DNA of 44,884 nt, taken from contig JAJZMF010000012.1 in the NCBI GenBank assembly GCA_021850325.1, positions 1 through 44,884 of the forward strand, written 5' to 3'. The notes beneath the pieces are model-generated. The model saw nothing but the letters and a program-made list of their open reading frames with translations, had not been told where the DNA came from and did no database searches. Source of the stretch: Actinomycetes bacterium. GTDB taxonomy: Bacteria > Actinomycetota > Acidimicrobiia > Acidimicrobiales > Palsa-688. How positions within the stretch are numbered: position 1 is the stretch's first letter; the number at the start of each line of letters is the position of its first letter. This document shows positions 17,550 through 44,302 of the stretch, piece by piece. A program made the translations under genes and the position numbers.

Positions 17550-17846
17550 GTGCGACCTCCTCGCAGGCACCGGCAGGCGCCGTCGCCCTCGGGACTGCAG
17601 ATGCTAGCGGGCACCGGGGGGCCTGTGCCGCTCCCCGGCGTTGCGCGATTTTCGCCCGCTCGGCCCACCAACACGACGCGCACCATGGCTGAGCTGGGGC
17701 CGGGGCTCAAGTTCGTCTTCTTCCGGGCCGACTCTAAAGACCAGGACAAGCCGCAGAGAACAAGACCCAGCAACAAGCCATGCCGACCGGACCAGGGCCA
17801 GCACTTACGGCTCACCCAAGGGCACAGCAGCCCTCGAGGTGCCGTT
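17550..17846. other. Intergenic region between aroQ and the conservon operon
   Basis: About 300 bp without a supported gene, separating divergent aroQ and the coiled-coil gene. It contains the sigma-28-like promoter at 17707-17734, leaving a leader of about 110 bases before GTG 17847. I saw no clear promoter for aroQ and no structured RNA here. The open frame on the plus strand that runs through the region is composition-driven and lacks family similarity. Confidence 0.6.
17707..17734 (+). promoter_or_regulatory. Sigma-28 (WhiG/FliA)-like promoter of the conservon operon
   Basis: TCAA, 16 bases, then GCCGACTC. The WhiG/FliA consensus is TAAA-N15/16-GCCGATAA. It is the only promoter-like sequence I noticed ahead of the five-gene operon and shares its exact spacing with six other sites in this window. 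Confidence 0.6.
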
Positions 17847-19040
17847 GTGACCCCCCAAGCAGACGGAGTAACCCAGGTGCGCTTCCAAGAACTTCGTGAC
17901 CAAGGTGGCACTGTGCTCGTCCGGGGCCTGCACGCCTCCATCGCCGTCGTGGCCGCCGGACCGGCAGCCCGCGCCGCCGTCGCTGCTGCCGTGGCCCACC
18001 AGGCCGGCGCCAGGTCCCTGAGCCCTGCGGACGTCGAGGAGCAGCTGCAAGCGGCTGCCGCGGCCATGGTGGCCGAGCGGGAGGCGAAGCTCCAGGACCA
18101 GAGAGCTGCCGTGGCCGGAGCCGGACAGGCGCTGGACAGCGCGGCCAAGGCCGCCGCCGACGCGGCCAGCGAGAGCACCCGGGCCGGTGACGACCTGGCC
18201 CGCCTGGACGAACTGGCCTCGCGACTGGCAGCCGCCGAGGAGACCTATGAGGCCGCAGTGCGGGCTGATGCCGAGGCAGCGCGCTCCCTGGCCGCCGCCC
18301 TGGGCGAACTGGACCGCATCCTGGGCCAGCGCCACAGCGCGAGCACCTCGCTCGACCAGGCCCGCCAGTCGCGCGAGCACCGCGGTGTGCCCGAGGCCGT
18401 GCTGGCCCAGGCGACCAACCTCCAGGCCGCGCTCGCCAATGCGGAGTCGGACAAGCGCGACGCAGTGCAGCAGGCAGACGAGACCTCGCAGGCGGCGCGG
18501 GCCGCCAGCCGGGACGCCCTGGCGTCTCTCGAAGCGGCTCACAGCGCTCTGCGGGCCGGGATGGCCGGGATCGCCTCCGGGGCGCCGGAATGGGGCACCG
18601 GGGTGCCTCTGCCCGGCCTGGTCGCCACCTACCGCGACAAGCTGGCCGCCGACGCGGCCAGCGCGCAGGCCACCGAGGCCCAGGCCCAGGAAGCCGAAAG
18701 GGCGGCGCGGGCGGCGCTCGACGAGCAGCAGGCCCAGCTCGAGGAGCTCGAGGGAGCGGGCGACGGCCCCCTCGCTCCGGGCAGCACCGTCGCCACGTGG
18801 CTGAACGGGCCCGACTTCGACCCGGATGAGGCCGTCCTGGCGGACGACGCCTTCCGCCGCTTCGGAGCGCCGGGCGCGGCTGAGCTCATCACTGCCCTCG
18901 CCGGGCACGGCTGCCAGGTGGTGTACCTGACCGATGACCCCGATGTACTGAGCTGGGCCATCGGCCTGCCGAACGATGTCGGAGGGGCGACCACCGTACC
19001 CACCGCCCCCGGGCGCCGGCCGGCCCTGGTGGGCGGCTGA
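17847..19040 (+). CDS. Coiled-coil protein resembling an SMC-type ATPase with degenerate nucleotide site
   Basis: Function unknown. The 397-residue protein has three parts. The N-terminal ~60 residues (VRFQELRDQGGTVLVRGL, then IAVVAAGPAARAAV) look like the first strands of an SMC/RecN head, but the Walker A lysine and glycine are missing. Residues ~70-310 are Ala/Glu/Gln-rich coiled coil with a short break near 240-265. The C-terminus has VLADDAFRRFG, like a Walker B and D-loop, then QVVYLTDDPDV, like the H-loop strand. It probably cannot bind ATP normally. Start GTG 17847 has GAGG 7 bases upstream; GTG 17877, with GGAG, is equally possible. It is first in the operon with cvnA-D, 110 bp ahead of cvnA. 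Confidence 0.75.
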   Translation: MTPQADGVTQVRFQELRDQGGTVLVRGLHASIAVVAAGPAARAAVAAAVAHQAGARSLSPADVEEQLQAAAAAMVAEREAKLQDQRAAVAGAGQALDSAAKAAADAASESTRAGDDLARLDELASRLAAAEETYEAAVRADAEAARSLAAALGELDRILGQRHSASTSLDQARQSREHRGVPEAVLAQATNLQAALANAESDKRDAVQQADETSQAARAASRDALASLEAAHSALRAGMAGIASGAPEWGTGVPLPGLVATYRDKLAADAASAQATEAQAQEAERAARAALDEQQAQLEELEGAGDGPLAPGSTVATWLNGPDFDPDEAVLADDAFRRFGAPGAAELITALAGHGCQVVYLTDDPDVLSWAIGLPNDVGGATTVPTAPGRRPALVGG

Positions 19041-19150
19041 GCCGTCCACCAGCTCCCCCGAGCCAAGCCCACCAGTAGAGCCGACCAGCCAGGCACCGCA
19101 CCGACGGGGCAGTCCACCCCCCGAGAGCTGAGCAACCAAGAAAGGCAACC

Positions 19151-22105
19151 GTGTTCCGGCACATCAGATCAAAACTCATTGCCGCCTTCGCCGTGCCGTT
19201 GGCCATCTTGGTGGCGGTGGCGGGCGTGCAGGCTCTCTCCGCGCTCCACCAGGTCAGCACGGTCGACAACCAGACCGCTCTGGCGTCGGCCTCCGTTGGC
19301 CCGGGCGGCCTCGTGCAGGCCCTCCAGGCCGAGCGCGAGTACGGCGAGCTGACGGTCCTGGCCGGCGCCATCAGCCCGGCTGCCGGCCTCAGAGGCCTGG
19401 GCCCCCACAGCGCGGGTTACTACCAGTCGCCCGGTCAGGTCACCACGGCCACCGACCAGGCGGTGGCTGCCTTCGAGCAGGACGTGCACAACCTGGGCGC
19501 GGCCGCCTCCAGTGTCTACGCGCCGGCGACCACCGCCCTGGACGGCATCACCCGGGCCCGCAGCTACTGGGAGCACGTACCCACCGGCCAGCGCACCGTC
19601 AGCGACTACCAGCTGCGCAGTGAGCTGGTCTACACGTCCTACGCGTCAATCGTGGCCAGCCTCGTCGACGCCACGGCGCAGGTCCCCCAGCAGGTGAACG
19701 ACCCGGTGCTGCGCAGCGGCGTCGAGGCCCTCAACGCCAGCCTGCAGGCAACCGAGGCCCAGTGGCAGACCTTCCAGGACATGGTCCGGGCCAGCTGGAG
19801 CACCGGGGCCGGCCGCGCGCAGGCCGTGGACCAGGCGAGCCAGGACTGGGGCAGCGCGCTGGCCTGGGCCAAGCAGCTGGCTTCGTTCGGCAACGGCCCG
19901 TACGGCACCGCGGTGAGGGACCTCGTGGGGGCCTACGGCACCTCCAACGCTGCTCATAGCGCACTGGCAGCCGCCGTCCAGGCCGACCTGGTGGCCTTCC
20001 ACCAGGGCCAGGCCCCGGCGCTCGGGCCGGTACTGGCCGCACTGAGCGGGCCCGCCCCCGCCGGCACGAGCAGCCCCCAGTCGGCGCAGACGTCGGGTAA
20101 CCAGCAGATAGCTGCCGTCGTGCGCCAGCGGGCCTCATCCCTTCACACCTCGGCCGTCGAACAGGTCCTGCTCTTCGGTGCCCTGGGAGCGCTGGGCACT
20201 GTCCTCGGCCTGGTCCTGGTGGCACTGGTCAGCCGTTCCATCTCCCGGCCGCTGGTCAACCTCGCCGAGCAGGCCGAGGAACTGGCCAACACAACGCTGC
20301 CCGCCACCGTGGCGGCCATCCTGGAGCACGGCAGCGCCGGCCCCGAAACGCCGAAGCCCTCCAAGGTCCGCGTCAGTACCCGGGACGAGCTCGGCCTGAT
20401 GGCACGGGCGCTCGAGGCCCTGAACAAGACCGCCGTGGAACTGGCAGCCGGGCAGGCCAACCTGCGGCGCAACCTGGCCGACGCATTCGTCAACCTCGGG
20501 CGGCGCAACCAGAACCTGGTCACCAGGCAGCTCGAGTACATAAGCGAGATAGAGCTCAAAGAGGCCGACCCGGAGTCCCTGGAGGAGCTGTTCCGCCTGG
20601 ACCACCTGGCCACCCGCATGCGCCGGAACGCCGAGTCGCTCCTCATCCTGGCCGGGAGCGGGCCTTCCCGTCAGTGGAGCGCCGCTGTGCCCGCCATGGA
20701 CGTCGCCAGGGCCGCCTCGGCCGAGGTGGAGGACTACAAGCGGCTGCGCCTGCACCACTTCGACCCGGCCCAGGTGACCGGATCGGTGACCACCGACCTG
20801 GTCCACATACTGGCCGAGCTGATCGAGAACTCCCTCACCTTCTCGCCTCCGGGGTCGCCGGTCGACATCTACGGCCGCTACCTGGAAGGTGGTTACGTGA
20901 TAGTGATCGTCGACTCCGGTATCGGGATGTCCGCCGAGGACCTGACGGTCGCCAACGGCCGCCTGCAGGGGGTGGGCTCGGCCACTGAGATACCGGGCCG
21001 TTACCTCGGGCACTTCGTCGCCGGCCGCCTGGCCGTCCGGCACGGGATCCTGATCTCGCTGCAGGCGTCGCACACCGGAGGCCTCGTCGCCAGGGTCAAG
21101 ATCCCCGCCACCCTCATAGAGGACGCTGTACCGGACCTCTCGGCGCAGGCCGAACTGAGCCCTGCCGAGCGCGAGGACCTCACGGGCGTCAACGGCTACG
21201 CACTGCCACCCGCCTCGCAGGCGCCCCCGGCCCAGGCAGCGCCCCCGAGGGCCACCGGCTACCCGGCCGCCACCGGGCCGGCCGTCCCCCAGGACGCCCA
21301 GGGGGCAGTCCCGGCGCCGAGCGCACCGGCACCTGCAACTGCCTACGCCGCTCCCGCCACGCCCCCTCAGGCCCCGCTGCCCGAGGCCAGCGTCCCACCA
21401 TCGGCCGCCGTCGCCCCCGAACCGCACGACGAGGCGCTACGGCCGGCCCCCCAGCCTGTCGGGCCAGCCCCGGCCGCGACGGTGCCGGCCGCAACAGGCC
21501 AGGTTGCGACAGGCCCGGCCACCAACAACCTCATCGACGACTACGGCGCCATGAACCCGGACGCCCTGACCAGGGCCCTGGCCGAGGCCAGTGCCGCAGC
21601 TGCCAGCCGGCCGCCCAGCCTCTTCGGCACCCACGACGACTGGGCCACCCCCACCAACCCGGCGGCCACCGGGGGCGCGACCGGCCAGCCTGCCGAGGCG
21701 GCCCTGTCCGGTGCGCCTGCCGACGCAGAACGAGCCGGGAGCACCCGCCCGGCCCTGGCACACCGGCTCCCGGCACCGGACCTCAACGCCGACGGCCCCC
21801 TGGCCGGCGCGCCCGCGCCCCAGGACGGGGGCCCGTCCTCCGCAGAGCCGGTCACTGCCGCCACCGGTGACCCCGGGGCAGGCACGGGCCCGGGCGCCCC
21901 CGTCGTGGAGGCGCACAGCGCGGCCGGCGGCGTGCGCAAGCTGACCAGGCGTGTACCCGGTGCATCGTTGCCGGCCGAGGACGGGGCACTGCGCAGGGAG
22001 ACCCCCACCACGACCTCCCGGAACCCCCTGGGCGTGACTGGCGCTCTCTCGCAATACCTTTCGGCCACCGGTCACGAGGGCCGCCCGGAAAAGGAGCACA
22101 ACTGA
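19151..22105 (+). CDS. Conservon sensor histidine kinase (CvnA-like)
   Basis: Membrane sensor kinase heading a conservon module. The 984 residues comprise: membrane helix 1 (about 9-30); an extracytoplasmic helical sensor resembling nitrate/nitrite-sensing domains (about 31-335); membrane helix 2 (about 336-361); HAMP (about 362-430); a helical region with RLDHLATRMRRNAESLL (His485 is the candidate phosphoacceptor); and a GHKL ATPase with Asn560 in AELIENSLTFS, Asp588 in DSGIGMS and GRYLGHFVAGRLAVRHG. The last ~300 residues are a Pro/Ala-rich, probably disordered tail. It ends 2 bases before the roadblock gene. In Streptomyces, CvnA proteins act with CvnB-D rather than with a classical response regulator, and none is adjacent here. 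Confidence 0.93.
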   Translation: MFRHIRSKLIAAFAVPLAILVAVAGVQALSALHQVSTVDNQTALASASVGPGGLVQALQAEREYGELTVLAGAISPAAGLRGLGPHSAGYYQSPGQVTTATDQAVAAFEQDVHNLGAAASSVYAPATTALDGITRARSYWEHVPTGQRTVSDYQLRSELVYTSYASIVASLVDATAQVPQQVNDPVLRSGVEALNASLQATEAQWQTFQDMVRASWSTGAGRAQAVDQASQDWGSALAWAKQLASFGNGPYGTAVRDLVGAYGTSNAAHSALAAAVQADLVAFHQGQAPALGPVLAALSGPAPAGTSSPQSAQTSGNQQIAAVVRQRASSLHTSAVEQVLLFGALGALGTVLGLVLVALVSRSISRPLVNLAEQAEELANTTLPATVAAILEHGSAGPETPKPSKVRVSTRDELGLMARALEALNKTAVELAAGQANLRRNLADAFVNLGRRNQNLVTRQLEYISEIELKEADPESLEELFRLDHLATRMRRNAESLLILAGSGPSRQWSAAVPAMDVARAASAEVEDYKRLRLHHFDPAQVTGSVTTDLVHILAELIENSLTFSPPGSPVDIYGRYLEGGYVIVIVDSGIGMSAEDLTVANGRLQGVGSATEIPGRYLGHFVAGRLAVRHGILISLQASHTGGLVARVKIPATLIEDAVPDLSAQAELSPAEREDLTGVNGYALPPASQAPPAQAAPPRATGYPAATGPAVPQDAQGAVPAPSAPAPATAYAAPATPPQAPLPEASVPPSAAVAPEPHDEALRPAPQPVGPAPAATVPAATGQVATGPATNNLIDDYGAMNPDALTRALAEASAAAASRPPSLFGTHDDWATPTNPAATGGATGQPAEAALSGAPADAERAGSTRPALAHRLPAPDLNADGPLAGAPAPQDGGPSSAEPVTAATGDPGAGTGPGAPVVEAHSAAGGVRKLTRRVPGASLPAEDGALRRETPTTTSRNPLGVTGALSQYLSATGHEGRPEKEHN

Positions 22106-22107: not shown

Positions 22108-22539
22108 ATGGGTACGGACGTTCTCAGCACTGACGTCAAGAACTTCAACTGGCTACTGGACAACTTCGTGGAGCGCAGTGCGGGTGTCTGTGACGCGGTC
22201 GCCGTCTCCTCCGACGGCCTGCTCATGGCCATGTCCCACACCCTCGACCGGGCCGGGGCCGAACGGGTGGCCGCCATCATCTCCGGCCTGGTCAGCCTGG
22301 CCAAGGGCTCGGCCAAAGCCTTCGGCTGGGAGCCCGTGCACCAGGTCATAGTGGCCATGGACGGTGGGTACCTCTTCGTGTCCTCCATCTCCGATGGCAG
22401 CAACCTGGGCGTCGTCGCCAATGCAGGCTGCGACGTAGGCCTCATCGGCTACCAGACAACGTTGCTGCTGGAAAAGATCGGCGCGCTCCTGAGCCCGGCG
22501 CTCATCGCCCAGTTGCGCGCCCAGGTCCTCAACAGTTAG
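22108..22539 (+). CDS. Roadblock/LC7-domain protein (CvnB-like, MglB family)
   Basis: Small regulator of the roadblock/LC7 fold, 143 residues. Recognisable parts are NFNWLLDNFVERSAGVCDAV, AVSSDGLLMAMSHTL and DGGYLFVSSISDGSNLGVVA, the alternating helix-strand pattern of the family. Relatives such as MglB act as GTPase-activating or scaffolding partners of small GTPases. It lies between the kinase and DUF742 genes, and the GTPase partner is two genes downstream. ATG 22108 begins 2 bases after the cvnA stop; GGAGC is seen upstream. Confidence 0.94.
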   Translation: MGTDVLSTDVKNFNWLLDNFVERSAGVCDAVAVSSDGLLMAMSHTLDRAGAERVAAIISGLVSLAKGSAKAFGWEPVHQVIVAMDGGYLFVSSISDGSNLGVVANAGCDVGLIGYQTTLLLEKIGALLSPALIAQLRAQVLNS

Positions 22540-22554: not shown

Positions 22555-22905
22555 GTGAGCGTAGAAGAGACACCCAAACAGCTGGGGCTGATCCGGCCGT
22601 TCATCCTGACCGGCGGCCGTACCTCCACGACCAGGCCCGAGCTGCGCTGGGAGACGCTGGTTGAGTCTCTGGCAGACCGGGCACGCCTGGCCAAGACCAC
22701 AGAGCAGCGCAGCCTGCTCTCCCAGACCGACCACCCCGTGTCGATCGCCGAACTGTCGGCGTACCTGCACCTGCCCACGCAGGTGGTGGCCATACTCGTG
22801 GGAGACCTCCTGGACATGGGCGCCATCCGCATCCACCAGACTGACCCCGTCGAGATCGAGCTGTCCGCCCTAACGAGGATGATCCAACGTGTCCGTGCTC
22901 TCTGA
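22555..22905 (+). CDS. DUF742 protein (CvnC-like)
   Basis: A 116-residue member of DUF742, the third component of conservons. It begins with the conserved LIRPFILTGGRT and contains a predicted winged-helix-like stretch, PVSIAELSAYLHLPTQVVAI, ending with MGAIRIHQ. Its biochemical role is not established; helix-turn-helix character is predicted for the family. GTG 22555 follows AGAAAGG. Its last 17 bases overlap the start of the GTPase gene, so the two are coupled. Confidence 0.92.
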   Translation: MSVEETPKQLGLIRPFILTGGRTSTTRPELRWETLVESLADRARLAKTTEQRSLLSQTDHPVSIAELSAYLHLPTQVVAILVGDLLDMGAIRIHQTDPVEIELSALTRMIQRVRAL

Positions 22906-23482
22906 AGCGCCCAACCGCCACGTCACGGCGGTCAAGTTCGTCATCGCCGGCGGCTTCGGTGTCGGCAAGACTACGTTCGTCGGGGCGATCTCCGAGGTGG
23001 AACCCCTCACCACCGAAGCTGCCATGACCGTCGTGGCCACCGGGGTCGACGACCACATGGCCGTCGCCGGGACCACCAAGACGACGACCACCGTGGCCAT
23101 GGACTTCGGCCGTCTCACTGTCGACGACTCCCTGGTCATGTACCTCTTCGGTGCTCCGGGACAGGGACGCTTCACCTTCATGTGGGACGACCTGGTCACC
23201 GGGGCCCTGGGGGCCGTGGTCCTGGTGGACACCCGCCGGATAGAGGACTGCTTCGCCGCCATCGACTACTTCGAGAGGCGGGGCCTGCCCTTCGTGGTGG
23301 GCGTCAACGTCTTCGACGGGTCGGAGCGCTACGGACTGGAAGAGGTACGCGACGCGCTCGGCATCTCGCCCGGGGTCCCGGTGTTCGAGATGGACGCACG
23401 CCACCGCGGCTCGTGCCGCGACGCCCTGCTCGTCCTGCTGGAACTGCTGGTCAGCCGCCTCTCACCCAAGGTGCACTCCTGA
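22889..23482 (+). CDS. Small Ras-like GTPase (CvnD-like, MglA-related)
   Basis: The GTPase of the conservon, 197 residues. It has the P-loop GGFGVGKTTF, a switch I Thr in the TTTTVAMDFGR region, the switch II motif LFGAPGQGRF (G3) and NVFDG at the G4 position where Ras proteins have NKxD, as in other CvnD proteins. EMDARHRGS occupies the G5 region. Related MglA switches cell polarity and T4P use in Myxococcus. Here pilus genes begin 70 bp away on the other strand, which makes a T4P role attractive but unproven. Start is GTG 22889, inside the end of the DUF742 gene. Confidence 0.94.
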   Translation: MSVLSEAPNRHVTAVKFVIAGGFGVGKTTFVGAISEVEPLTTEAAMTVVATGVDDHMAVAGTTKTTTTVAMDFGRLTVDDSLVMYLFGAPGQGRFTFMWDDLVTGALGAVVLVDTRRIEDCFAAIDYFERRGLPFVVGVNVFDGSERYGLEEVRDALGISPGVPVFEMDARHRGSCRDALLVLLELLVSRLSPKVHS

Positions 23483-23555: not shown

Positions 23556-24353
23556 TTAGTGCAGGTGCACCAGGGACAGGTACCAGTTGACCACCGGTGA
23601 GCCGACCAGGGCGCTGGCGATGGCACCGGCGGCGAGGAAGCTCCCGAACGGGACCATGGTCCGCCGCCCTGCCCGGCCGAGGAGGATGAGGGTGACCCCC
23701 ACCACCGAGCCGAGCAGGCTGGCCAGCACGAACCCCAGGAAGGCGTAGGCGGCGCCGAGCCAGCCCAGGCCGAAGCCGATGAGCAGGGCCAGGCGCACGT
23801 CGCCGAAGCCGAGGGCTTGCGGCTTCAACCAGTTGAGCAGGTAGAACAACGCCCAGGGGACGGCGCCGGAGACCGCCGCCACTCCCAGGGCGCCCCAGCG
23901 GCCCGAGGTGGCTGCAGCGACCACCACGAGCAGTGCCACCAGGGCCAGGTCAACGTAGACCACCCGGCGCGGCAGCACCATGTGGTCGAAGTCGATGAAG
24001 CCCAGCGCGACCAGGCCCACCGCCATGACGGCCTCCGCCAGTGCCGTCCAGCTCAGCCCGAAGCGCCATCCCGCCCCGGCCACGACGGCGCCCACGAGAG
24101 CCTCGACCAGCGGGTAGCGAACAGCAATGGGAGCGTGGCAGTCCCGGCACCGGCCACCAAGCAGGGCCCAGGAGACGAGGGGCACGTTGTCCCAGGGGCG
24201 CACCCGGGCCTGGCAGTGGGGGCATGCCGAGGGGGGGGACACCACGGACAGCCCTTCGGGGACGCGGTAGATGACCACATTGGTGAACGACCCGGCCAGC
24301 AAACCGAAGAGCCCGAGGACCACGGCCGCCCGCAGGCCCGGCCCTACCAGCAC
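23556..24353 (-). CDS. pilD: Type IV prepilin peptidase / N-methyltransferase (PilD)
   Basis: Membrane aspartic protease that removes prepilin leaders and methylates the new N-terminus. Motifs are GSFTNVVIYRVP, the cytoplasmic zinc pairs CPHC and CRDC about 25 residues apart, and the two catalytic Asp sites FIDFDHMVLP and GFGDVRL. Several hydrophobic helices follow. I chose GTG 24353 because GGAGG lies 6 bases upstream and the sigma-28-like promoter (24406-24433) sits within the longer open frame that starts at 24437. The protein is 265 residues. Its substrates are presumably the six prepilin-like proteins with cleavable leaders in this window. Confidence 0.94.
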   Translation of the reverse strand: MLVGPGLRAAVVLGLFGLLAGSFTNVVIYRVPEGLSVVSPPSACPHCQARVRPWDNVPLVSWALLGGRCRDCHAPIAVRYPLVEALVGAVVAGAGWRFGLSWTALAEAVMAVGLVALGFIDFDHMVLPRRVVYVDLALVALLVVVAAATSGRWGALGVAAVSGAVPWALFYLLNWLKPQALGFGDVRLALLIGFGLGWLGAAYAFLGFVLASLLGSVVGVTLILLGRAGRRTMVPFGSFLAAGAIASALVGSPVVNWYLSLVHLH

Positions 24354-24405
24354 GGCACCCCTCCGACGCTGGGCCACCCACGGGCGAGCACGGTCACAAC
24401 CTGGA

Positions 24406-24433
24406 TCTTCGGCAACCCGGCACCGCGTGCTGA
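24406..24433 (-). promoter_or_regulatory. Sigma-28-like promoter of pilD
   Basis: On the minus strand: TCAG, 16 bases, GCCGAAGA. The same GCCGAAGA element precedes the minus-strand minor-pilin cassette. It would give a leader of about 45 bases containing the GGAGG site of GTG 24353. Confidence 0.5.
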
Positions 24434-24444
24434 GCACCGGTGCC
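24419..24444. repeat. Strong imperfect hairpin between aroB and pilD
   Basis: An 11-bp stem (GGCACCG then GTGC pairing with GCAC then CGGTGCC) with one bulged C and a TGA loop. It lies 34 bp after the aroB stop, so it may end aro transcription, although no U-tract follows. It overlaps the upstream half of the pilD promoter, so it could also be a regulatory site. Confidence 0.5.
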
Positions 24445-32973: not shown

Positions 32974-33598
32974 GCTCGCCCACCGGCGCGTTGAGCCTTC
33001 GCCCGAGCAGCGCTCGCTGGGCTTCACCCTGGTCGAGATGGCGGTGGCGATGATGCTGATGTCCGTCGTCCTCGTCCTGACCATGACCGGGATGGTCCAC
33101 CTGCTCAACCCCACCCTGCAGACCCAGGCCATCGGTACGACGACGTCCCAGCTGGACCTGGCGTTCTTCAACCTCGACCAACAGGTCCACTACGCCTCCT
33201 CGATCTGGGCCCCTTACCAGGGCACGGGGGGCAACTACGACGTCCTGTTCGAGTGGACCTTCAACGGCCAGAGCAACGCCTCGTGCTCGCAGCTGCAGCT
33301 GTCGACGACCACGGGCGAGCTGCTCGAGCGTACGTGGCCGGCCGCCTCGCCACCGTCCAGCGCCCCCGGTTGGCACATCTGGGCCACCAACCTGATCGTG
33401 CCCTCACCGGCCACCAACCCCTTCAGCTTCCCTACGACGCTGTACGCCAAACAGGAGCTCACGGTGACCCTGACCGCTGCTTCAGGCACGGGCCAGGCTC
33501 ACAGGACCGAGGTGTCATCCATGACCTTCACCGCCCTTGACACATCTTCGGCCAATGCCCCCAACACCACGACCTGCAACGCGAGCTGGACGGCCTAG
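32966..33598 (+). CDS. PilW-like minor prepilin
   Basis: Second gene of the plus-strand cassette, 210 residues. The leader ends PEQRSLG before FTLVEMAVAMMLMSVVLVL, with Gly before the cut and Glu5. The globular part includes LDLAFFNLDQQVHYASSIW, typical of PilW/PilJ-like pilins where a helix follows the membrane segment, and two Cys. It starts with GTG 32966 inside the end of the preceding gene (8-base overlap) and is followed immediately by the PilX-like gene. Confidence 0.88.
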   Translation: MAELAHRRVEPSPEQRSLGFTLVEMAVAMMLMSVVLVLTMTGMVHLLNPTLQTQAIGTTTSQLDLAFFNLDQQVHYASSIWAPYQGTGGNYDVLFEWTFNGQSNASCSQLQLSTTTGELLERTWPAASPPSSAPGWHIWATNLIVPSPATNPFSFPTTLYAKQELTVTLTAASGTGQAHRTEVSSMTFTALDTSSANAPNTTTCNASWTA

Positions 33599-35357: not shown

Positions 35358-35385
35358 TAAAGGACCACCAGATCGCCTCCGATTA
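35358..35385 (+). promoter_or_regulatory. Sigma-28-like promoter of the mannose-transfer operon
   Basis: TAAA, 16 bases, TCCGATTA, ending 8 bases before GTG 35394. As with the minus-strand pilin cassette, the predicted transcript would be almost leaderless. Confidence 0.6.
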
Positions 35386-36290: not shown

Positions 36291-37503
36291 GAGGGGCCGT
36301 AAGGCTACCGCCACCCTGTTGGCAGGCGGAGGCGGCCTCCTGCTGGGCGCTCTCGCTGTCCTCTTTGCCGGTGCTGTCACCAAGTTGCCCTGCATGGGCA
36401 CCCTCGACAACGGCCTGCTCCCGCGCCACTACTGCTATGCCGATATAGCGAACCTGTTCCGGCCCAGGCAACTGGGCGCGCACGTCTTCCCGTACGTCCA
36501 CGGCAGGATGAGCGTGAGCGGGACGGGCAACGCCTTCATGGGGCACGGCGAGATCGAGTACCCCGTCCTCACCGGCCTGTTCATCTGGCTGTCCGCGCTC
36601 CCGGTCGGCACAGCGGGCGCGTTCCAGGTTTCGAGCAGCCTGATGCTCGCGCCCTTTGGGATCCTGGCCGCTTGGTGCCTGTGGCGCCTGGCTGGGCGCC
36701 GGGCCTGGTACTTCGTCCTCACCCCGGCCCTCGCCACCTACGCCTTCCTCAACTGGGACCTGATCGGCGTGGCGCTCGCGCTCACCGGCATCTACCTCTG
36801 GTCACGTGAGCACCCGAACTGGGCTGCGGTGGCGTTCGCTGTCGGCACCTGCGCGAAGGTGTGGCCCGGCCTCCTTCTCCTCCCCCTCGTGACCCAGTAC
36901 GCCCTCCTCGACCGGCGGCGGGCGTGGACCATCGCCGGTCTGGCGGGTGCAACCGCTCTGCTCCTGAACGCGCCCTTCATCATCGTCAACCCCCGAGGGT
37001 GGTACATACCCTTCGCCTTTCAATCGCTCCGGCCCGTCAGCATCGACACCAACAGCCTCTGGTACTGGGACGCCCACATGCTTTCCACGCCGGCGGTGAA
37101 CCTCGCGTCTACGGTCGCGGTAGCCATCGGCTTGGTCGTCGCCATAACCTGGAGCGTCCAGCACTACCGCCGTACCGGGACCTACCCCTTCTTGCAGGTG
37201 GGAGCGCTCAGCGTGGCCTGGTACCTGCTGACCTGGAAGGTCTACTCGCCCCAGTACGACCTCTGGCTCCTGCCATTTTTCGCACTCGGGACGTACCGTC
37301 GTGCGTTGTGGGCAGATTTCGTCCTGGCCGACACTGCCCTCTACACCTGGTGGCTCCTCGGTCCGCCCGCCTCCCTCCACTGGCTCCTCGCCGTCCTCGT
37401 GTTCTGGAGGGCTGTCACCGTAGCCTGGTTCATGCGCTCGTCGATCGTTGGCGCAACCGTCCACGCTTCCGACAATGCCCATGCCGTTCTCTTCGCACCC
37501 TGA
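36283..37503 (+). CDS. Multispanning GT-C-type glycosyltransferase (GT87/DUF2029-like)
   Basis: Polytopic membrane protein of 406 residues with about ten hydrophobic segments. GEIEYPVLTGLFIWLSALP, with acidic residues in the first loop, and AFLNWDLIGVALALTGIYLW resemble polyprenol-phosphate-mannose-dependent mannosyltransferases of the DUF2029 group. KVYSPQYDLWLLPFFAL is the conserved late block of that group. It probably transfers a lipid-linked sugar outside the membrane, but its acceptor is unknown. ATG 36283 overlaps the end of the DPM1-like gene by 8 bases, supporting a joint pathway. Confidence 0.8.
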   Translation: MPERGRKATATLLAGGGGLLLGALAVLFAGAVTKLPCMGTLDNGLLPRHYCYADIANLFRPRQLGAHVFPYVHGRMSVSGTGNAFMGHGEIEYPVLTGLFIWLSALPVGTAGAFQVSSSLMLAPFGILAAWCLWRLAGRRAWYFVLTPALATYAFLNWDLIGVALALTGIYLWSREHPNWAAVAFAVGTCAKVWPGLLLLPLVTQYALLDRRRAWTIAGLAGATALLLNAPFIIVNPRGWYIPFAFQSLRPVSIDTNSLWYWDAHMLSTPAVNLASTVAVAIGLVVAITWSVQHYRRTGTYPFLQVGALSVAWYLLTWKVYSPQYDLWLLPFFALGTYRRALWADFVLADTALYTWWLLGPPASLHWLLAVLVFWRAVTVAWFMRSSIVGATVHASDNAHAVLFAP

Positions 37504-37578: not shown

Positions 37579-38871
37579 GTGACCACTGAACCGCTCGCCA
37601 CTGCCGCCATGGGACGCTCTTGCGGGACGTCCCCAGTCATGGTGCCGGCAGCGCTCCCACAGGACCACGGTCGGACCGCCAACGGCCTCGGCCAGCGTCG
37701 CCCGCAGCAACGCTGGCCGGCACTCGATGGCCTCAGGGGGATAGCGGTCCTCCTCGTCGTCTTCTACCACTTCCACGCACCGGGGCCCGGCCTGCTCCAC
37801 CTCCGCGGTGGATGGGCAGGTGTGGACGTCTTCTTCGTCCTGTCCGGATTCCTGATAACCGGCCTGCTGCTAAGGGAGCACGACCGGACGGGACGGGTCA
37901 GCCTGGGAGCCTTCTACCGACGTCGCTTCTGGCGGCTCGTGCCCGCGCTGCTCCTCTTGGTCCTGGGTTGGGAGGTCGCCTCAACCTTCTTGAGCTGGCC
38001 GGGGCAGACGGTGGTGTACACGGCCGGCGCCCGGGCGCGCGACCTGCTCATGTTGTCGTCAATGGGCTTGAACTGGTGGGGGATCGCCGGGGCTCCCGTC
38101 CCGCCGGGGTTCGGTGCCCTGTGGTCACTCGCAGTCGAAGACCAGTTCTACCTGCTCTGGGCGCCCGTCGTCGCACTACTGTGCCTGGTCCGGGCAAGAG
38201 CGCAGCGCACGCGGCTCATCCTGATGATCGCCGCCGGCGGAGCAGCGATCTCGGCGGTCGAGTGCTTCGCCCTCTATCCAACCCACCACGACCAGGTCCG
38301 CATCTACTTCGCCACCGACACCCGGGCTCAGGGTTTGCTGATCGGTGCGGTGGCAGCAGTGCTGTGGGAGCAGCATAAGGTGCTGCCTGAGCACATGAGC
38401 CGTGTGCTCGCCGTGGCAGGCGCTTTCGCCATAGCCCTCGTCGGCGTCTTCATCGATGACGCGAGCCCCTGGCGCGTAGAGGGCTCTTTCACCTTACTGG
38501 CGCTGGCAACCCTGTTCGTCGTCAGCCACGTGGTGAACTACGAGCAGTCCCGCTTTGCACATGCGCTGTCCTGGCGGCCCCTGCGCTGGACCGGTAGACG
38601 TTCATATGCCATCTACCTCTGGCACGCGCCGATCGCGACCTATATGTACAGCTTGCCCGGGAGCACGAGCTCGAGCCGCTTCGGGTGGCCGGCGTACTTC
38701 GGCGGCATCGCTCTGGCGCTGGTCATGGCCGAGGTGTCGTGGCGGCTGGTCGAGCGGCGCTGCTTCGATCACGCCCACGCGCATGCACCGAGAGCTGGCG
38801 GGACCGCCCAGAGGCAGTTTCCTGCACCCGGTGGGACAGTCGGTGGTGGCCTGCCACGAGCACCTGCATAG
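37579..38871 (+). CDS. Acyltransferase-3 family membrane protein (OafA/YrhL type)
   Basis: Membrane O-acyltransferase for sugars of surface polymers, 430 residues. ALDGLRGIAVLLVVFYHFH holds the catalytic His. GGWAGVDVFFVLSGFLITGLL, YRRRFWRLVPALLLL and LWSLAVEDQFYLLWAPV are the standard acyltransferase-3 blocks, followed by about six more hydrophobic helices and RRSYAIYLWHAP near the end. There is no fused SGNH esterase domain. It starts with GTG 37579, 75 bp after the glycosyltransferase, probably in the same operon. It may acetylate the pilus or surface glycan. Confidence 0.92.
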   Translation: MTTEPLATAAMGRSCGTSPVMVPAALPQDHGRTANGLGQRRPQQRWPALDGLRGIAVLLVVFYHFHAPGPGLLHLRGGWAGVDVFFVLSGFLITGLLLREHDRTGRVSLGAFYRRRFWRLVPALLLLVLGWEVASTFLSWPGQTVVYTAGARARDLLMLSSMGLNWWGIAGAPVPPGFGALWSLAVEDQFYLLWAPVVALLCLVRARAQRTRLILMIAAGGAAISAVECFALYPTHHDQVRIYFATDTRAQGLLIGAVAAVLWEQHKVLPEHMSRVLAVAGAFAIALVGVFIDDASPWRVEGSFTLLALATLFVVSHVVNYEQSRFAHALSWRPLRWTGRRSYAIYLWHAPIATYMYSLPGSTSSSRFGWPAYFGGIALALVMAEVSWRLVERRCFDHAHAHAPRAGGTAQRQFPAPGGTVGGGLPRAPA

Positions 38872-39325: not shown

Positions 39326-39931
39326 TCAGCCGGGGAACACCGGGCTGATCGAGGTCGCCGACGAGTAGAACGTGTTGATACTGAAGGTCGTCGACTCATG
39401 GCCGGTACCGGTGTTGCCGACCGAAGAGAGGGCGAAGGAGTTCACCACGTACAGGCGTGGCTGCGCGTCCACGGCTCGCACAAAAGCCAGCAACTGGGCC
39501 TGGCTACCTGTCGCTGCAACCGACAGGCCGAGGCTCAGCGGGCCCGACGGGCTGGCCGGAGTGCCGGCCGGGGAGCTCGCCGGCGTGCCCCAGCCCGTGG
39601 GCTCCGGCACGCTCACACTCTGCAGTGTGACCCCTGCACGGCGGGCGGCAGCCCGCAGGGTGGTGAGGGCCTGGTCGAGGCTGGGACCGTTGGGCACTGC
39701 CTGTACCAGCTTCTTGAGGACAGCCCGCTCGCCCTTCACCTTCGGGACCTGTGCCTTCAGCTGTGCCAGCTGCGCCTGGTCCGTGGCCACCTGGCCCTGC
39801 GCCTGCTGGAGCGAGGCCTGTGCGGTCTTCAGGCTGGCCCCCTCGGGCTTCCAGAGTGCCATGTACCAGACCACCGCCACCACCAGCACGGCTGCCAAGG
39901 CACCCAGCGCGATGAGCTTCTGCTGCTTCAC
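39326..39931 (-). CDS. pilO: Type IV pilus inner-membrane alignment protein PilO
   Basis: Partner of PilN in the inner-membrane alignment complex. The 201 residues have a short cytoplasmic start, one membrane helix (about 7-27, ALAAVLVVAVVWYMALW), a Gln/Ala/Leu coiled coil (about 33-70) and a ferredoxin-like C-terminal half with LSVAATGSQAQLLAFVRAVD and YVVNSFALSS, typical of PilO. The start is GTG 39931, overlapping the pilMN stop as GTGA. No PilP or PilQ is expected in this single-membrane organism, and none was seen. Confidence 0.88.
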   Translation of the reverse strand: MKQQKLIALGALAAVLVVAVVWYMALWKPEGASLKTAQASLQQAQGQVATDQAQLAQLKAQVPKVKGERAVLKKLVQAVPNGPSLDQALTTLRAAARRAGVTLQSVSVPEPTGWGTPASSPAGTPASPSGPLSLGLSVAATGSQAQLLAFVRAVDAQPRLYVVNSFALSSVGNTGTGHESTTFSINTFYSSATSISPVFPG

Positions 39932-41577
39932 TTGGTACCTCCGGGCAACTTGGCCGCACGGTTGCTGAGCGCGGCGGAGGTGACCTGGCCGGTCACCGAG
40001 AACGAGTCCGTGCCTTTGGTGATCTCATTGGAGGACACCCACACAGCGCTCAGGCCTTTGACGCGCGACATGGCCCGCTCGAAGGACGCCACGGACCTGA
40101 GGCCTCCGGTGGTCTGACCGCTCATCGTGATGTTACCGACAATGGTGGCAGTGTTAGCCGTTGGCGGCGCTGTGGGCGCCGACGAGGGGCTTGCGGGTGG
40201 TGCGGCGGTGAAGTTGACTGCCGTCACCACCACCCCACCGGGCAGCGCGTGCTCAATCCGGTGCTGCAGGCCGACCCAGTCGACGTCACTCTGGAGCGCA
40301 GCAGCCGCCAGGGCGCGACGGGCCTGCATGTCGTCGGCAGCCCTGGTCACATAGGCCAGCTTGTCGATCTGTTGGGCCAGGGCACCGGCTTGTTGCTGAG
40401 CAACCGTGGTCTGTGCCTTGACGTTGTCGATGGAAGTCGTCTTCTGGTAGGCGAGCACGCCGAGCCCGGCAGCGACGACCACAACGCCGGCGCCGGCCAT
40501 TGCGATCGTCTGGCGCTGACGAGCCCGCTCAGCCACCTCCGCCGGGATGAGGTTGGGCGACTGCGAGCCCTCTGTTCCCCACAGGGCGAGGCCGACGGCC
40601 GCCGTCCAGCGCAGCCCGGCCTCGGCCAACTGCTCCTCTGCGAGCCCGAGGACGTCCCCATCGGCCTGGGCCACCAAGCCGGCCGGCCCCACGGGCACAC
40701 CGAGCACCGATGCCATGCGCTCCTTCAGTCCCGGCGTGAGCGCAGACCCGCCCGTGACGCTCACCCGGTCAAGGCGTGCGCCATGGGCATGGGAAAGGAA
40801 GTACTCGATCGAGCTGCGCACCTCCTCGACCGCCGTCTCGGTCCGCGGCGCCGGTGACCGCTCCTCGGGGTGGTCCTTGACAGCGCCGGGCGACACCCGG
40901 GCCACCACGCCCGTGCGGGCCGGGCTCTCCACGTCGGCGCCCAGAGCCGTGGTACGGATGAAGCGCGGGACACCACCTTGGCGCACGGCCACGACCGCCA
41001 GTTGCGCACCGAGGGACACCACGGCGTCCATCTCTCCCTCGCCCGGCAGAGGTACGGCCCGCAGCAGGGCCAGGGCCGAGGCGTCAACGGCACGGGGGCG
41101 AAGCCCCGCCTTGCGCACGACCTCGATCTCATCGCGGACGATGTCCTTCTGCGCCACCACCACGAGGACCTGGGTCGTCGGGCCTCCGTCGCTGTTCGGG
41201 CGCCCCGGTCCGAGGATTTCGAAGTCGAACACCGCCTGTTCGAGCGGTATCGGCAGCACATCGCCGATCTCGTACCGCAGGGCCGACCGCAGGTCCTTGC
41301 CCAGGGTGCCCGGCATCTCCAGCACGCGGACCATCGCCCGCTGGCTCGAGACCCCGACCACGACCTGACGGGACTTGAAGCCGCCGTCGCCCCACAGGCG
41401 CTTTATGGCCGCGCTCACGGCGTCCGCGTCGCGCACCTCGCCCTCGACCACGGCCCCCGGGGCAAGGCCCACCTGGGCGAAGCGGCGCAGCTCCGCGCGC
41501 TTACCGTCGATAACCACCTCAGCCGCACGGACGGCCGATGAGCCTATGTCAAGCCCTACGCTCGTACGCTTACGCAC
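39928..41577 (-). CDS. Fused PilM-PilN type IV pilus assembly protein
   Basis: A 549-residue protein joining two usually separate factors. Residues 1-~330 are actin-like PilM: TSVGLDIGSSAVRAAEV, VVVGVSSQRAMVRVLEMP, LRYEIGDVLPIPLEQAVFDF and VSVTGGSALTPGLKERM. Then PNLIPAEVAERARQRQ corresponds to the N-terminal NLLP-type motif of PilN that binds PilM. A membrane helix (about 356-378), coiled coil and PilN-like periplasmic domain (VDWVGLQHRIEHALPGGVVV) follow. The membrane topology of PilN is kept. GTG 41577 has GGAGG 6 bases upstream. No stop or frameshift separates the halves. Confidence 0.92.
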   Translation of the reverse strand: MRKRTSVGLDIGSSAVRAAEVVIDGKRAELRRFAQVGLAPGAVVEGEVRDADAVSAAIKRLWGDGGFKSRQVVVGVSSQRAMVRVLEMPGTLGKDLRSALRYEIGDVLPIPLEQAVFDFEILGPGRPNSDGGPTTQVLVVVAQKDIVRDEIEVVRKAGLRPRAVDASALALLRAVPLPGEGEMDAVVSLGAQLAVVAVRQGGVPRFIRTTALGADVESPARTGVVARVSPGAVKDHPEERSPAPRTETAVEEVRSSIEYFLSHAHGARLDRVSVTGGSALTPGLKERMASVLGVPVGPAGLVAQADGDVLGLAEEQLAEAGLRWTAAVGLALWGTEGSQSPNLIPAEVAERARQRQTIAMAGAGVVVVAAGLGVLAYQKTTSIDNVKAQTTVAQQQAGALAQQIDKLAYVTRAADDMQARRALAAAALQSDVDWVGLQHRIEHALPGGVVVTAVNFTAAPPASPSSAPTAPPTANTATIVGNITMSGQTTGGLRSVASFERAMSRVKGLSAVWVSSNEITKGTDSFSVTGQVTSAALSNRAAKLPGGTK

Positions 41578-41612: not shown

Positions 41613-41640
41613 CTATCGGCGCCCTCGTGGCGCGGCTTGA
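41613..41640 (-). promoter_or_regulatory. Sigma-28-like promoter of pilMN-pilO
   Basis: On the minus strand: TCAA, 16 bases, GCCGATAG, the closest match in the window to the WhiG/FliA -10 GCCGATAA. It sits 35 bases before GTG 41577, leaving room for the GGAGG ribosome site. Confidence 0.65.
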
Positions 41641-41658: not shown

Positions 41659-42285
41659 TCACCACCGCGCGTACCAGTCACTGGCGGAAATGGCATTTCC
41701 TGTCACCACATGGGTGCCCGCTGCCCCTCCGGTGGGCGCGGGCGACGACACAGGGAACGTGACCGCCGTGCCTGCGCAGCCACCCGGTCCTGATGATTCC
41801 GCGAAACCCAGGATGCTGAGGCTCGTGCTGACCTCGAAGTCGGCCACGTAGAAGCAGGTACCGGACCCGCCCAAGGCCTCGATGACAACGGCCTGCCCCC
41901 TGTCCCCGGCGGCAGCGGCCTCACTGAAGACCCCCGTCGCCCGGTCAACGCTTCCCGCCAGTGCCGTCACGTCCCCCGGCCGTACCGTCGTCGAACCGCT
42001 CCAGTGCAACCCCGGGTCGAGGTCCTGGGCTGCTTTCAGCGCTCCGCGTCCGGCCGCTACGTCCTCGAACCCGAGCGTCGAGGAGTACAGGGCCTTCTCG
42101 TCCGTCAGGGCGCTCTGAGCCTCCGACGTGGCCGACGCAGCCGTGGCCGCCTTGCGTGTCCCCAGGAACGTGGGGAGTGCTATTGCCATGAGCACACCCA
42201 GGACGAGCACCACCACCATCATCTCCACCAGGGTGAAGCCCCGTTCCTCAGCTGCCCCCCGGGCCATCTCCCGTTCCGTGCCCAC
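41659..42285 (-). CDS. Type IV prepilin (PilA/PilE-like)
   Basis: Pilin of 208 residues. The 16-residue leader ends AAEERG before FTLVEMMVVVLVLGVLMAIALP, with Glu5. The conserved TFLGTRKAATAASATSEAQS region and a Cys pair (GSGTCFYVADFE and GPGGCAG) resemble the major pilin at the window end, so this may be a second major or accessory pilin. GTG 42285 is preceded by GGAGG and shares its first base with the stop codon of the glycosyltransferase gene (TAGTG), so both are co-translated. Confidence 0.9.
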   Translation of the reverse strand: MGTEREMARGAAEERGFTLVEMMVVVLVLGVLMAIALPTFLGTRKAATAASATSEAQSALTDEKALYSSTLGFEDVAAGRGALKAAQDLDPGLHWSGSTTVRPGDVTALAGSVDRATGVFSEAAAAGDRGQAVVIEALGGSGTCFYVADFEVSTSLSILGFAESSGPGGCAGTAVTFPVSSPAPTGGAAGTHVVTGNAISASDWYARW

Positions 42286-44156
42286 TACCCCTCCTGTCCT
42301 GCCCGATGGCTGACGGGCCTTCCCAGGTCGAACAACCTCTCGCCCCCGATGGTCACCTCTCTGAAGTGCGAGGCCACCCAAGCCGTGATCTGCCCCGCCT
42401 GCGTACGCGCCAGGGACTTCGGGACGAACACGCCTGCTGTAGGGCTGGCGGGCACGAAGTACCCCACTCTGCCCGCCCTCACCAGCGCCTCGAACCTCCC
42501 GAGCGTCGGGACGGGGTCCGTCCCGCGCCAACCCCCCACCGCCATGGCCGCCCGGCCGCTCGCCAACTGGTAACCGGCCGCCGGGTCACCCCCCACGACC
42601 GCCACCACCCATTCCCTGCTCTGCGGCTCTGTACGCAGGGCACGGACAAGAGCCGCACTGGGCCGGCTCACCTGGGTCAAGCTGCCGCGTCGCGGTCCGG
42701 GCTCCAGGGCTGGTGCCAGTCCCGGTAGCACCGCCATCGGGTCCACGGACGGTACCGGTGCCGAAGCGGTGCCGACGGCGTAGCTGACCGGCCCCGCCAG
42801 GGCTGTCCAGGTCGTTGCGGCCACGAGGGCCACCCTCGCCCCCCGCCGCCTCAGGTCACCGGCGACCAGCACCGCAGCTGCCAGCAGGGCGCACAGAAGG
42901 ACCGCGTACCTCACCCAGGGCACCCAACCCCGCTCACGGTCGAGCAGGTCGAAGGCCCACAGCCCGCTGACCACAAGGACGCAGCCTCCCCACCACCGTG
43001 CCGTCCGGTCATGGAGCTGCCGTACAAGCACCGCCCCACCAACGGCAACCGCCGCAGCCACGGCTGGGGCCAGCAGCACTGTGTAGTACGCGTTGATCAA
43101 CCCCTGCCCGCTGCTGAAGACGAGGGCTCCCACACCAAGCCACGCTCCCCAGGCCCACAAGGCCGTCTGCTCCTCCCCGGCCAGCCTCGCACCTCCCAAG
43201 GCCAACCCCCCTACAAGCAGCAGGCCCGCAGCGGGTACCAGCCATGCCACCTGTGCCCCCATCTCCCCGCCGAACAGGCGCAGCACGCTCGCCCAGAGCG
43301 CGTGCCAGAAGGGCCCTGCACCACCGTTGAAGCCGGTGCCGGTAAGCCGGTTGAACCCGTCGTAGCCGAACACCAGCGACCAGATGCTGTTGTCCTGCGT
43401 GCTGCCGACGAACGGACGCCTCCCGGCAGGCACCAACCAGTACAGGGCGAGCCACCAACCACCCGAGAGCACGGCACCCGCAGCAGCCCTGGCACCCAAT
43501 GACGTACGCTTGGCCCAGCTGCCGCGGCCCCTGAGCAGGACCACCAGAACGGCTGGGACCACCACGCCCACGGCCAGTAGCTTCGCCAGGAACCCCAGCC
43601 CAAGGAGCACACCCGCCAGCCAGGCCCAGCCCCTGGCATCGGTGGTCCTCGAACGCACGGCTGCGTACATCGCGCCAACGCAGAGCAGGGTCAACAGCGC
43701 GTCAGGGTTGTTGAAGCGGAAACTCGCAACTGCCACCGGTGCCGCCGCCATGAGGATCGCCGCCACCAGCCCCGCCCACCGTCCGGCGACCCGTGCCACG
43801 ACTGCGTACAACAGCGCCACCGTCCCGACACCCTCGAGCGCGTAAGGCACCAGTACCGACCAGGGGCTCAAACCGAACAGCCGGACGGCCACTTCCGGCG
43901 GCCACAGCGATGCCGGTCCCTTGTCGATGCTGACGACGCCGTTGGGGTCCAGAGAACCGAAAATCGCGGCCGGGAGACTGCGGGACCCGGCCTCCACGGC
44001 AGCAGCGTAATAGCCGTAGCCCCAACCCCAGTGCCCCAGGTCCCACAGATAGAGCAGGGCGCTCACACCGAGCACCAACGCCAGAGCAACGGCCCACCTC
44101 ACGCCGTTCCAGCCCTGTTTGTGGGCCGAGCCTGCGTCGGCATGCCGCAGATCCAC
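42285..44156 (-). CDS. GT39-family membrane glycosyltransferase (PMT/ArnT-like)
   Basis: Polytopic transferase predicted to use polyprenyl-phosphate sugars outside the membrane, 623 residues. YLWDLGHWGWGYGYYAAAVEA is the first extracytoplasmic loop, and FGSLDPNGVVSIDKGPASLW is the equivalent of the DKPPL motif of this family. About eleven hydrophobic helices and a ~150-residue C-terminal soluble domain follow. I chose GTG 44156 because GGAGG is 7 bases upstream; the frame is open back to 44315 but that part contains a promoter. It lies between two pilin genes, which suggests pilin glycosylation. Confidence 0.88.
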   Translation of the reverse strand: MDLRHADAGSAHKQGWNGVRWAVALALVLGVSALLYLWDLGHWGWGYGYYAAAVEAGSRSLPAAIFGSLDPNGVVSIDKGPASLWPPEVAVRLFGLSPWSVLVPYALEGVGTVALLYAVVARVAGRWAGLVAAILMAAAPVAVASFRFNNPDALLTLLCVGAMYAAVRSRTTDARGWAWLAGVLLGLGFLAKLLAVGVVVPAVLVVLLRGRGSWAKRTSLGARAAAGAVLSGGWWLALYWLVPAGRRPFVGSTQDNSIWSLVFGYDGFNRLTGTGFNGGAGPFWHALWASVLRLFGGEMGAQVAWLVPAAGLLLVGGLALGGARLAGEEQTALWAWGAWLGVGALVFSSGQGLINAYYTVLLAPAVAAAVAVGGAVLVRQLHDRTARWWGGCVLVVSGLWAFDLLDRERGWVPWVRYAVLLCALLAAAVLVAGDLRRRGARVALVAATTWTALAGPVSYAVGTASAPVPSVDPMAVLPGLAPALEPGPRRGSLTQVSRPSAALVRALRTEPQSREWVVAVVGGDPAAGYQLASGRAAMAVGGWRGTDPVPTLGRFEALVRAGRVGYFVPASPTAGVFVPKSLARTQAGQITAWVASHFREVTIGGERLFDLGRPVSHRAGQEG

Positions 44157-44239
44157 AGGGTGCCCTCCCGGTCGGCCCACAAGCGCCTCCTGCCCGACCG
44201 TCAAGCCCACGTCACAACTGTCCCCCGCTGGACCGGCGC

Positions 44240-44255
44240 GGCCTGGTACCAGGCC
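44240..44255. repeat. Perfect 16-bp palindrome upstream of the GT39 gene
   Basis: GGCCTGGTACCAGGCC, centred 35 bp after the sigma-28-like promoter towards the gene. A perfect palindrome without a spacer is more like a protein-binding site than a hairpin. It could be an operator near the transcription start. Confidence 0.4.
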
Positions 44256-44274
44256 AAGGGATGCCATTACCTGA

Positions 44275-44302
44275 TCATCGGGACATCGGACGGCAGGCTT
44301 GA
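44275..44302 (-). promoter_or_regulatory. Sigma-28-like promoter of the GT39 gene and second pilin
   Basis: On the minus strand: TCAA, 16 bases, CCCGATGA. It is located just after the terminator-like hairpin of pilA, as expected for a fresh transcription start. Confidence 0.5.

Follow-up and report, generated by a model that had tools for sequence, protein, structure and literature searches.

The closest described counterpart of the system considered here is that of Rubrobacter radiotolerans, in which a switch made of the sigma factor WhiG, its partner RsiG and cyclic dimeric GMP (c-di-GMP) controls type IV pili (Schumacher et al. 2021, PMC8325347). The parts of that report on which we draw describe 12 such promoters with mapped starts, of which three lie inside the pil cluster and five ahead of genes for c-di-GMP enzymes, and explain that, in both Streptomyces and Rubrobacter, c-di-GMP makes RsiG bind WhiG and low c-di-GMP frees it. 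They also place a twin-motif RsiG in three of four Acidimicrobiales species, for which those parts give no pilus targets, and mention Actinoplanes missouriensis, where FliA-family sigma factors control zoospore pili and flagella and RsiG is absent (PMC8325347). Conservon systems occur in Acidimicrobiales, typically one per genome, according to the excerpt of a second report used here (PMC13343842). We analysed contig JAJZMF010000012.1, a stretch of 44,884 nucleotides (nt) from a bacterium of the Acidimicrobiales, hereafter the window, which carries type IV pilus genes, a conservon operon and likely glycosylation genes with seven promoter-like sites before them.

We consider it likely, at roughly three chances in four, that these sites are WhiG promoters, gated by a twin-motif RsiG and c-di-GMP, that serve the type IV pilus genes and the conservon next to them and probably also the genes for pilin glycosylation. 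The consensus of WhiG, a sigma factor of the sigma-28 or flagellar family, is approximately TMAAG-N14/15-GCCGATAN. A sequence-only reading of the window had proposed such a sigma-28 regulon from seven two-block strings, and each string, with its N16 spacer, is present where it was placed (Table 1; below, sites are named by the first base of their upstream block).

Promoter-like sites before pilus and conservon genes

We built a scoring matrix from 11 pilM sites and one pilB site of relatives, to which the window sequence contributed nothing, and scanned the whole window on both strands. Three matches reached at least 15 bits, each of them a site of the sequence-only reading, where 0.1 was expected in first-order Markov sequence. 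Five control scans of the window with wrong spacers gave two matches of at least 15 bits in all, with top scores of 14.1, 15.3, 12.5, 12.8 and 19.2 bits. By score alone, only the top-ranked site at 41640, before pilMN-pilO, stands clear; those at 31266, 35358 and 44302 show enrichment when taken together, and those at 17707, 31120 and 24433 are unremarkable, their support being position and conservation. Window sites under about 14 bits need support beyond score. Further, a G that follows TMAA in the relatives' sites, which the sequence-only reading had not used, is present in six of the seven window sites.

Upstream regions across genomes were then compared at a threshold of 13 bits or more with the mean count of wrong-spacer scans. 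Eight duplicate and three overlapping loci, the 11 pilM and one pilB training loci, and regions too short or off the locus were left out, and one housekeeping query (called carB) was named by its size and neighbours rather than by family search. Matches precede pilM in 9 of 18 regions, pilB in 3 of 7 and pilA in 9 of 24 (wrong-spacer means 0.4, 0 and 1.2), as against 2 of 315 housekeeping regions, which equals the control level of 2.0. The sequence-only reading had seen no such site ahead of housekeeping genes, and that observation holds; its concern that the motif might be as common before unrelated genes is answered for pilM, pilB and pilA, while pilD is weak at 1 of 16 (wrong-spacer mean 0.2) and other pilus genes give 1 of 36 (mean 0). 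Before pilM, a two-block site of the form T[ACT][AC]A-N15/16-[GA][CA]CGA is present in 15 of 18 relatives, and its upstream block starts at a distance of 58 to 134 nt from the homologous start. This conservation strongly supports 41640 as a putative promoter.

The conservon operon encodes a CvnA kinase-like protein, a roadblock protein, a DUF742 protein and a small GTPase in that order, and diverges from aroQ (DHquinase_II). In both close relatives read at this place, the orthologous position carries TCAA-N15-GCCGACTC (L013) or TCAA-N16-GCCGACTA (L018). This footprint, like that of pilD, comes from direct reading of the relatives' DNA, without a wrong-spacer control; for the conservon, a MAFFT alignment set the site out of register, since the distance from site to start is longer by about 100 bases in the window. 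The pilD site is kept at the same place in five of six close relatives, as TAA[CG]-N15/16-GCCGAT[CT]A in L013, L015, L016 and L018 and as TCAG-N16-GCCGACAG in L014, at 11.0 to 11.8 bits; L017 lacks it. Among the minor pilins, a homologue of the first cassette has TAAA-N16-ACCGATGA 8 nt before its GTG (L152), and the operon homologous to the second cassette in genome G005 has TCAA-N16-GCCGATAG 7 nt before its ATG (L157). Two genomes, G005 and G019, have conservon genes within 20 kb of pilMN, and in G005 a single locus holds pilMN-pilO, an unknown gene, cvnA to cvnD and minor pilins, with WhiG-type sites.

Similar sites recur in those stretches of the same genome beyond the window that were examined. 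An overlap of 127 nt links the end of the window to contig C15, with a pilin gene split between the two contigs, so that pilB-pilC-pilA lie immediately ahead of the pilus genes of the window. There, pilB has TAAA-N16-GCCGACAA 7 nt before its ATG, and in seven of eight distinct relatives the best site before pilB has its -10 block ending 7-8 nt before the ATG, with weak scores in three. c-di-GMP enzyme genes are preceded by such sites as well: a PAS-GGDEF gene has TAAA-N16-GCCGATAA 7 nt before its ATG, and high-scoring sites lie about 40 nt upstream of a GAF-EAL gene and about 150 nt upstream of a GAF-GGDEF-HD gene. At a further locus (L103), a 22.2-bit site is followed by a gene call on its own strand after about 740 nt; a 17.6-bit match at L095, antisense inside a gene call, is probably false.

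In relatives, a second c-di-GMP element adjoins the pilin genes. Of 18 relatives, 7 have Rfam c-di-GMP-I riboswitches upstream of pilin genes, with nine matches in total, six of which (L151, L152, L159, two in L160, L161) start 17-20 nt past a -10 block of 12.8-17.7 bits. Before the riboswitches of L148 and L153 and the third of L160, no site of at least 12 bits was found, and a search of the window and of the region before its own pilA found no c-di-GMP riboswitch.

WhiG, RsiG and a second sigma factor

The sigma-28-type factor that such a regulon presupposes is present: a FliA/WhiG-family protein scores 275.6 bits against TIGR02479 (cut-off 189.6). Among solved proteins it is closest to 6pfj_A (336.7 bits; labelled RNA polymerase sigma factor), with 156.2 bits to FliA (6pmi) and 132.6 bits to 7lq4_A (labelled WhiG; a 198-residue chain, two stretches). 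We take 6pfj_A to be WhiG, and chains A and T of that entry, the latter labelled AmfC protein, to be the pair from Streptomyces venezuelae. The actinobacterial whiG locus adjoins rpsB-tsf, and the sigma gene lies in that neighbourhood here (L105), its neighbours being, as we take it from their translations without family search, rpsB, tsf, pyrH and frr. A second sigma factor of the genome, FliA-like at 190.1 bits, is found on contig C26 beside genes that we read as flgN, flgK and flgL; because that one adjoins presumed flagellar genes, the first is best called WhiG. WhiG is predicted to start transcription at TAAA / GCCGATAA promoters.

An RsiG relative is encoded in one frame of 216 amino acids with two PF22802 repeats (63.1 and 31.3 bits; cut-off 27). 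The first of its two motifs, ETELSYLRRLAQARID, matches E(X)3S(X)2R(X)3Q(X)3D exactly, and the second, EREVSRQRRELHDVMD, has H in place of Q. The sole solved match of this protein is 6pfj_T (59.7 bits), the partner chain in the entry of WhiG's best match, and by this resemblance it would bind both WhiG and c-di-GMP. Across 41 genomes including this one, TIGR02479 (E <= 1e-40) is matched in 37, PF22802 in 33, pilMN in 24 and flagellin in 13; the genomes are 61 to 100% complete, and absences among them are weakened by that incompleteness.

An unlikely alternative is that the sites are real sigma-28 promoters read by the second, FliA-like sigma factor, so that pili and flagella would form one motility regulon. 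The genome does have flagellin matches in addition to that gene, and a WhiG-type site precedes the flgN-like gene. However, eight relatives without a flagellin match and with a single family sigma factor at E <= 1e-40 (G003, G005, G006, G008, G009, G013, G016 and G020) keep the pilM site; their single factor is WhiG-like in seven (264.9-274.2 bits) and shorter in G003 (214.1 bits). Further, the flagellin locus of the window's own genome (L201) has no match above 11.5 bits. These eight relatives and this flagellin locus make WhiG a likelier reader than FliA. As a separate observation, one of the eight flagellin loci L194-L201 (L195, 14.6 bits) has a same-strand match above 13 bits shortly upstream, unlike the pilus genes, with little upstream DNA in some of these loci.

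With WhiG as the probable reader, the twin-motif RsiG would hold the sigma factor off at high c-di-GMP. A drop in c-di-GMP would free WhiG, which would then transcribe pilB-pilC-pilA, pilMN-pilO, the minor-pilin cassettes and the conservon. Several c-di-GMP enzymes would be transcribed along with these genes, and their place in the regulon would close a feedback loop. We infer the reader, its gating by RsiG and c-di-GMP, and the direction of the response by analogy with the described switches; all these genes would be switched jointly. Because WhiG-type sites precede both pilus and GTPase genes in a genome with an RsiG relative, one chemical signal probably decides pilus building. RsiG and the c-di-GMP enzymes, absent from the sequence-only reading, as was the Rubrobacter precedent, make its regulon interpretable. 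Of that proposal, the pilus and conservon parts are supported by conservation, and the inclusion of glycosylation genes has score and position on its side.

More tentatively, and at somewhat less than even odds, c-di-GMP may govern the type IV pili of Acidimicrobiia at several levels, through RsiG and WhiG and, in relatives, through a riboswitch between WhiG promoter and pilin gene, while the Ras-like GTPase of the conservon, as a member of the regulon, may act on the pilus in the manner of MglA of Myxococcus.

Chance, weaker sites and gene context

That the motif is a product of chance, drawn from its own hits in a GC-rich genome, we consider very improbable for the set as a whole. The loose pattern of the sequence-only reading has 279 matches in the 3.18-Mb genome, with about 3.9 expected per window and eight present, a mild excess; the eighth, at 8421-8445 on the minus strand, lies within a 1114-codon open reading frame of the same strand. 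With so many matches the loose pattern alone proves little; the sequence-only reading had itself named as a weakness that it was partly built from the hits themselves. We dropped the counting of its matches as uninformative. Exact N16 spacing, also claimed, is there in the strings but was partly forced by the search pattern, and the relatives' training sites have N15 (nine) or N16 (three). A spacing scan gave 6, 2, 8, 14, 3, 5 and 11 matches for N13 to N19; since N13 and N19 are raised too, the N16 peak is partly codon phase, and we rejected it as proof of promoters. Two of the five wrong-spacer window scans, moreover, reach 15 bits. Against chance stand the derivation of the matrix from other genomes, the recurrence of sites at homologous places and their contrasting rarity before housekeeping genes, and for the pilM and conservon sites conservation already argues against it. 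Chance is possible for individual sites, most of all for 24433, 35358 and 44302. Least probable of all, a conserved element bound by another regulator rather than a core promoter would suit the fact that the role of the site is known here from sequence and not from transcripts, but sits poorly with two blocks at 15/16 spacing that resemble the flagellar consensus, a near-constant 7-8 nt to the pilB ATG and 17-20 nt to riboswitch starts in five relatives.

Several observations weigh against a WhiG regulon as broad as the one we favour. The count of 15 of 18 for pilM is partly so by construction because 11 of those sites trained the matrix, and pilM of L159-L161 has no site at the usual place, L160 and L161 having 14.0-bit sites further up. 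Site 24433 is a poor match in its own genome. Homologous minor pilins have a site in two relatives (L152, L157) and none in three: L153 and L158, counterparts of the first cassette, lack it, and the L147 homologue of the second cassette has none above 9.9 bits. Site 31266 would also imply a leader of about 275-280 nt. Neither 35358 nor 44302 has an orthologous footprint, no orthologous region having been found for the comparison, which leaves score and position as their support; a mannosyltransferase gene in G004 has a marginal 11.2-bit site upstream. Leaderless spacing fares no better as a family feature: six of seven TAAR matches in the own genome have an ATG 10 nt past GCCGA, five of those six having prompted the idea, and the 143 loose matches listed for relatives show no preferred distance, with 15 of them at distance 10 where about 12 fall at each distance. 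We rejected this geometry as a general feature and retained it for pilB only. Finally, the same-genus genome G001 (93% complete) has WhiG, RsiG and flagellin matches and no pilMN match, so that the WhiG-RsiG switch does not go with pili in every genome and WhiG probably has other targets there.

The features of the window, and the riboswitches of relatives, are collected in Table 1. Site 44302 sits behind a terminator-like hairpin 3' of pilA (hairpin and order read by eye).

Table 1. Putative WhiG-type promoters and genes of the window, with c-di-GMP-I riboswitches of relatives (scores and ranks from the relatives' matrix)
Feature	Coordinates	Strand	Remarks
WhiG-type promoter, divergent aroQ / conservon intergenic region	17707..17734	+	TCAA-N16-GCCGACTC; 12.4 bits, rank 7
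First conservon-operon gene	17877..19040	+	no Pfam match; predicted start (open from 17844); conserved GGAG-GTG start block
cvnA-like sensor kinase	19151..22105	+	HATPase_c, HAMP; NIT below cut-off
cvnB-like roadblock protein	22108..22539	+	Robl_LC7
cvnC-like DUF742 protein	22555..22905	+	DUF742
cvnD-like small GTPase	22889..23482	+	ATP_bind_1; operon position
pilD prepilin peptidase	23556..24437	-	A24_N_bact, Peptidase_A24; true start probably downstream of 24437
Degenerate WhiG-type promoter before pilD	24406..24433	-	TCAG-N16-GCCGAAGA; 6.8 bits, rank 62
Large 785-residue protein ending minor-pilin cassette	27437..29794	-	no Pfam match; candidate tip adhesin
Minor prepilin	29791..30426	-	N_methyl
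Minor prepilin	30396..31085	-	N_methyl; ATG 31085 gives short leader
WhiG-type promoter, first minor-pilin cassette	31093..31120	-	TAAG-N16-GCCGAAGA, 7 nt before ATG 31085, leaderless geometry; 12.2 bits, rank 9
WhiG-type promoter, second minor-pilin cassette	31266..31293	+	TAAA-N16-GCCGACTA; 16.1 bits, rank 2
Minor prepilin with F5/8 type C domain	31575..32973	+	N_methyl, F5_F8_type_C; predicted start ATG 31575
Minor prepilin	32966..33598	+	N_methyl
PilX-like protein, ricin-type lectin domain	33599..35284	+	Ricin_B_lectin; PilX_N below cut-off
WhiG-type promoter	35358..35385	+	TAAA-N16-TCCGATTA, 8 nt before GTG 35394; 15.1 bits, rank 3
Family 2 glycosyltransferase, first gene of likely glycosylation operon	35394..36290	+	Glycos_transf_2
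Possible GT87-like membrane glycosyltransferase	36202..37503	+	GT87 E 0.0011, below cut-off
Acyltransferase	37579..38871	+	Acyl_transf_3
pilO	39326..39931	-	T2SSM / PilO
pilM-pilN fusion	39928..41577	-	PilM_2; other half presumably PilN
WhiG-type promoter before pilMN-pilO	41613..41640	-	TCAA-N16-GCCGATAG; 20.3 bits, rank 1
Prepilin	41659..42531	-	N_methyl at residue 96 of the reading frame; true start near 42250
PMT/YkcB-type mannosyltransferase	42285..44267	-	PMT_2, YkcB_C; predicted start
WhiG-type promoter	44275..44302	-	TCAA-N16-CCCGATGA, 7 nt before ATG 44267; 13.8 bits, rank 4
Pilin, probably major pilin pilA	44384..44884	-	off contig end; continues in contig C15 below pilB and pilC
c-di-GMP-I riboswitch	L148:519-608		
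c-di-GMP-I riboswitch	L151:6375-6463		
c-di-GMP-I riboswitch	L152:9926-10011		
c-di-GMP-I riboswitch	L153:12755-12841		
c-di-GMP-I riboswitch	L159:2057-2149		
c-di-GMP-I riboswitches	L160		three
c-di-GMP-I riboswitch	L161:7317-7408		

Three further sites of the same genome stand apart from the pilus loci. On contig C17 (L097:2487-4307), a 20.0-bit site lies about 170 nt before a camelysin-like (Peptidase_M73) gene followed by a signal peptidase-like gene, a pair reminiscent of TasA-SipW matrix fibres. An 18.1-bit site on contig C48 (L110:1392-2999) precedes gene calls weakly like L-type lectins, below cut-off. On contig C11 (L094:1586-2571), a gene for a sigma factor that comprises regions 1.2, 2, 3 and 4 has TAAG-N16-GCCGATAC 7 nt ahead of its ATG, and a sigma cascade is possible there.

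Comparison with described switches

The system is most likely an Acidimicrobiia version of a switch already known, enlarged by a conservon. Its WhiG and RsiG find their best solved matches in the partner chains of 6pfj, which we take to be the S. venezuelae pair. What looks new is the Acidimicrobiia-type version, with its twin-motif RsiG, the conservon under the same promoters and the c-di-GMP riboswitches of relatives; no report of such a regulon was found in the literature on conservons and type IV pili or on Acidimicrobiia and WhiG, subscription papers lying outside the search. If the reading is right, it extends the WhiG-RsiG-c-di-GMP pilus switch from Rubrobacter to a second actinobacterial lineage and offers a testable role for a conservon, together with a predicted regulon, in a little-studied group. 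A lineage that combines twin-motif RsiG with a pilus switch would mean that the twin form need not be tied to sporulation, and pilus control may be an older job of WhiG. Should the conservon GTPase indeed act on the pilus, conservons would gain a pilus role.

The following comparisons are with those parts of the published reports on which we draw. The switch logic is already known from Rubrobacter (PMC8325347), with which this genome shares a WhiG-family sigma factor, RsiG and TAAA / GCCGATAA-type promoters, which lie within the pil cluster and also upstream of genes for c-di-GMP enzymes, three such genes having them in this genome. Unlike Rubrobacter, with its single-motif homodimeric RsiG, it has a twin-motif RsiG, a promoter of this kind precedes its conservon, and its relatives add a riboswitch before pilin genes. 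The twin-motif RsiG is shared with the Streptomyces WhiG-RsiG sporulation switch (PMC8325347; PDB 6pfj, 6pfv), from which the present system differs in that the targets found are pilus and c-di-GMP genes; whiH and whiI were not searched for. As in Actinoplanes, WhiG-like flagellar sigma factors would direct pilus genes; by contrast, RsiG is present here, and pilM keeps its site in genomes that show no flagellin match. The CvnA to CvnD gene order is that of known conservons and actinobacterial G protein systems (PMC13343842), and unlike those described there, this conservon lies beside pilus genes under what appears to be a pilus-type promoter.

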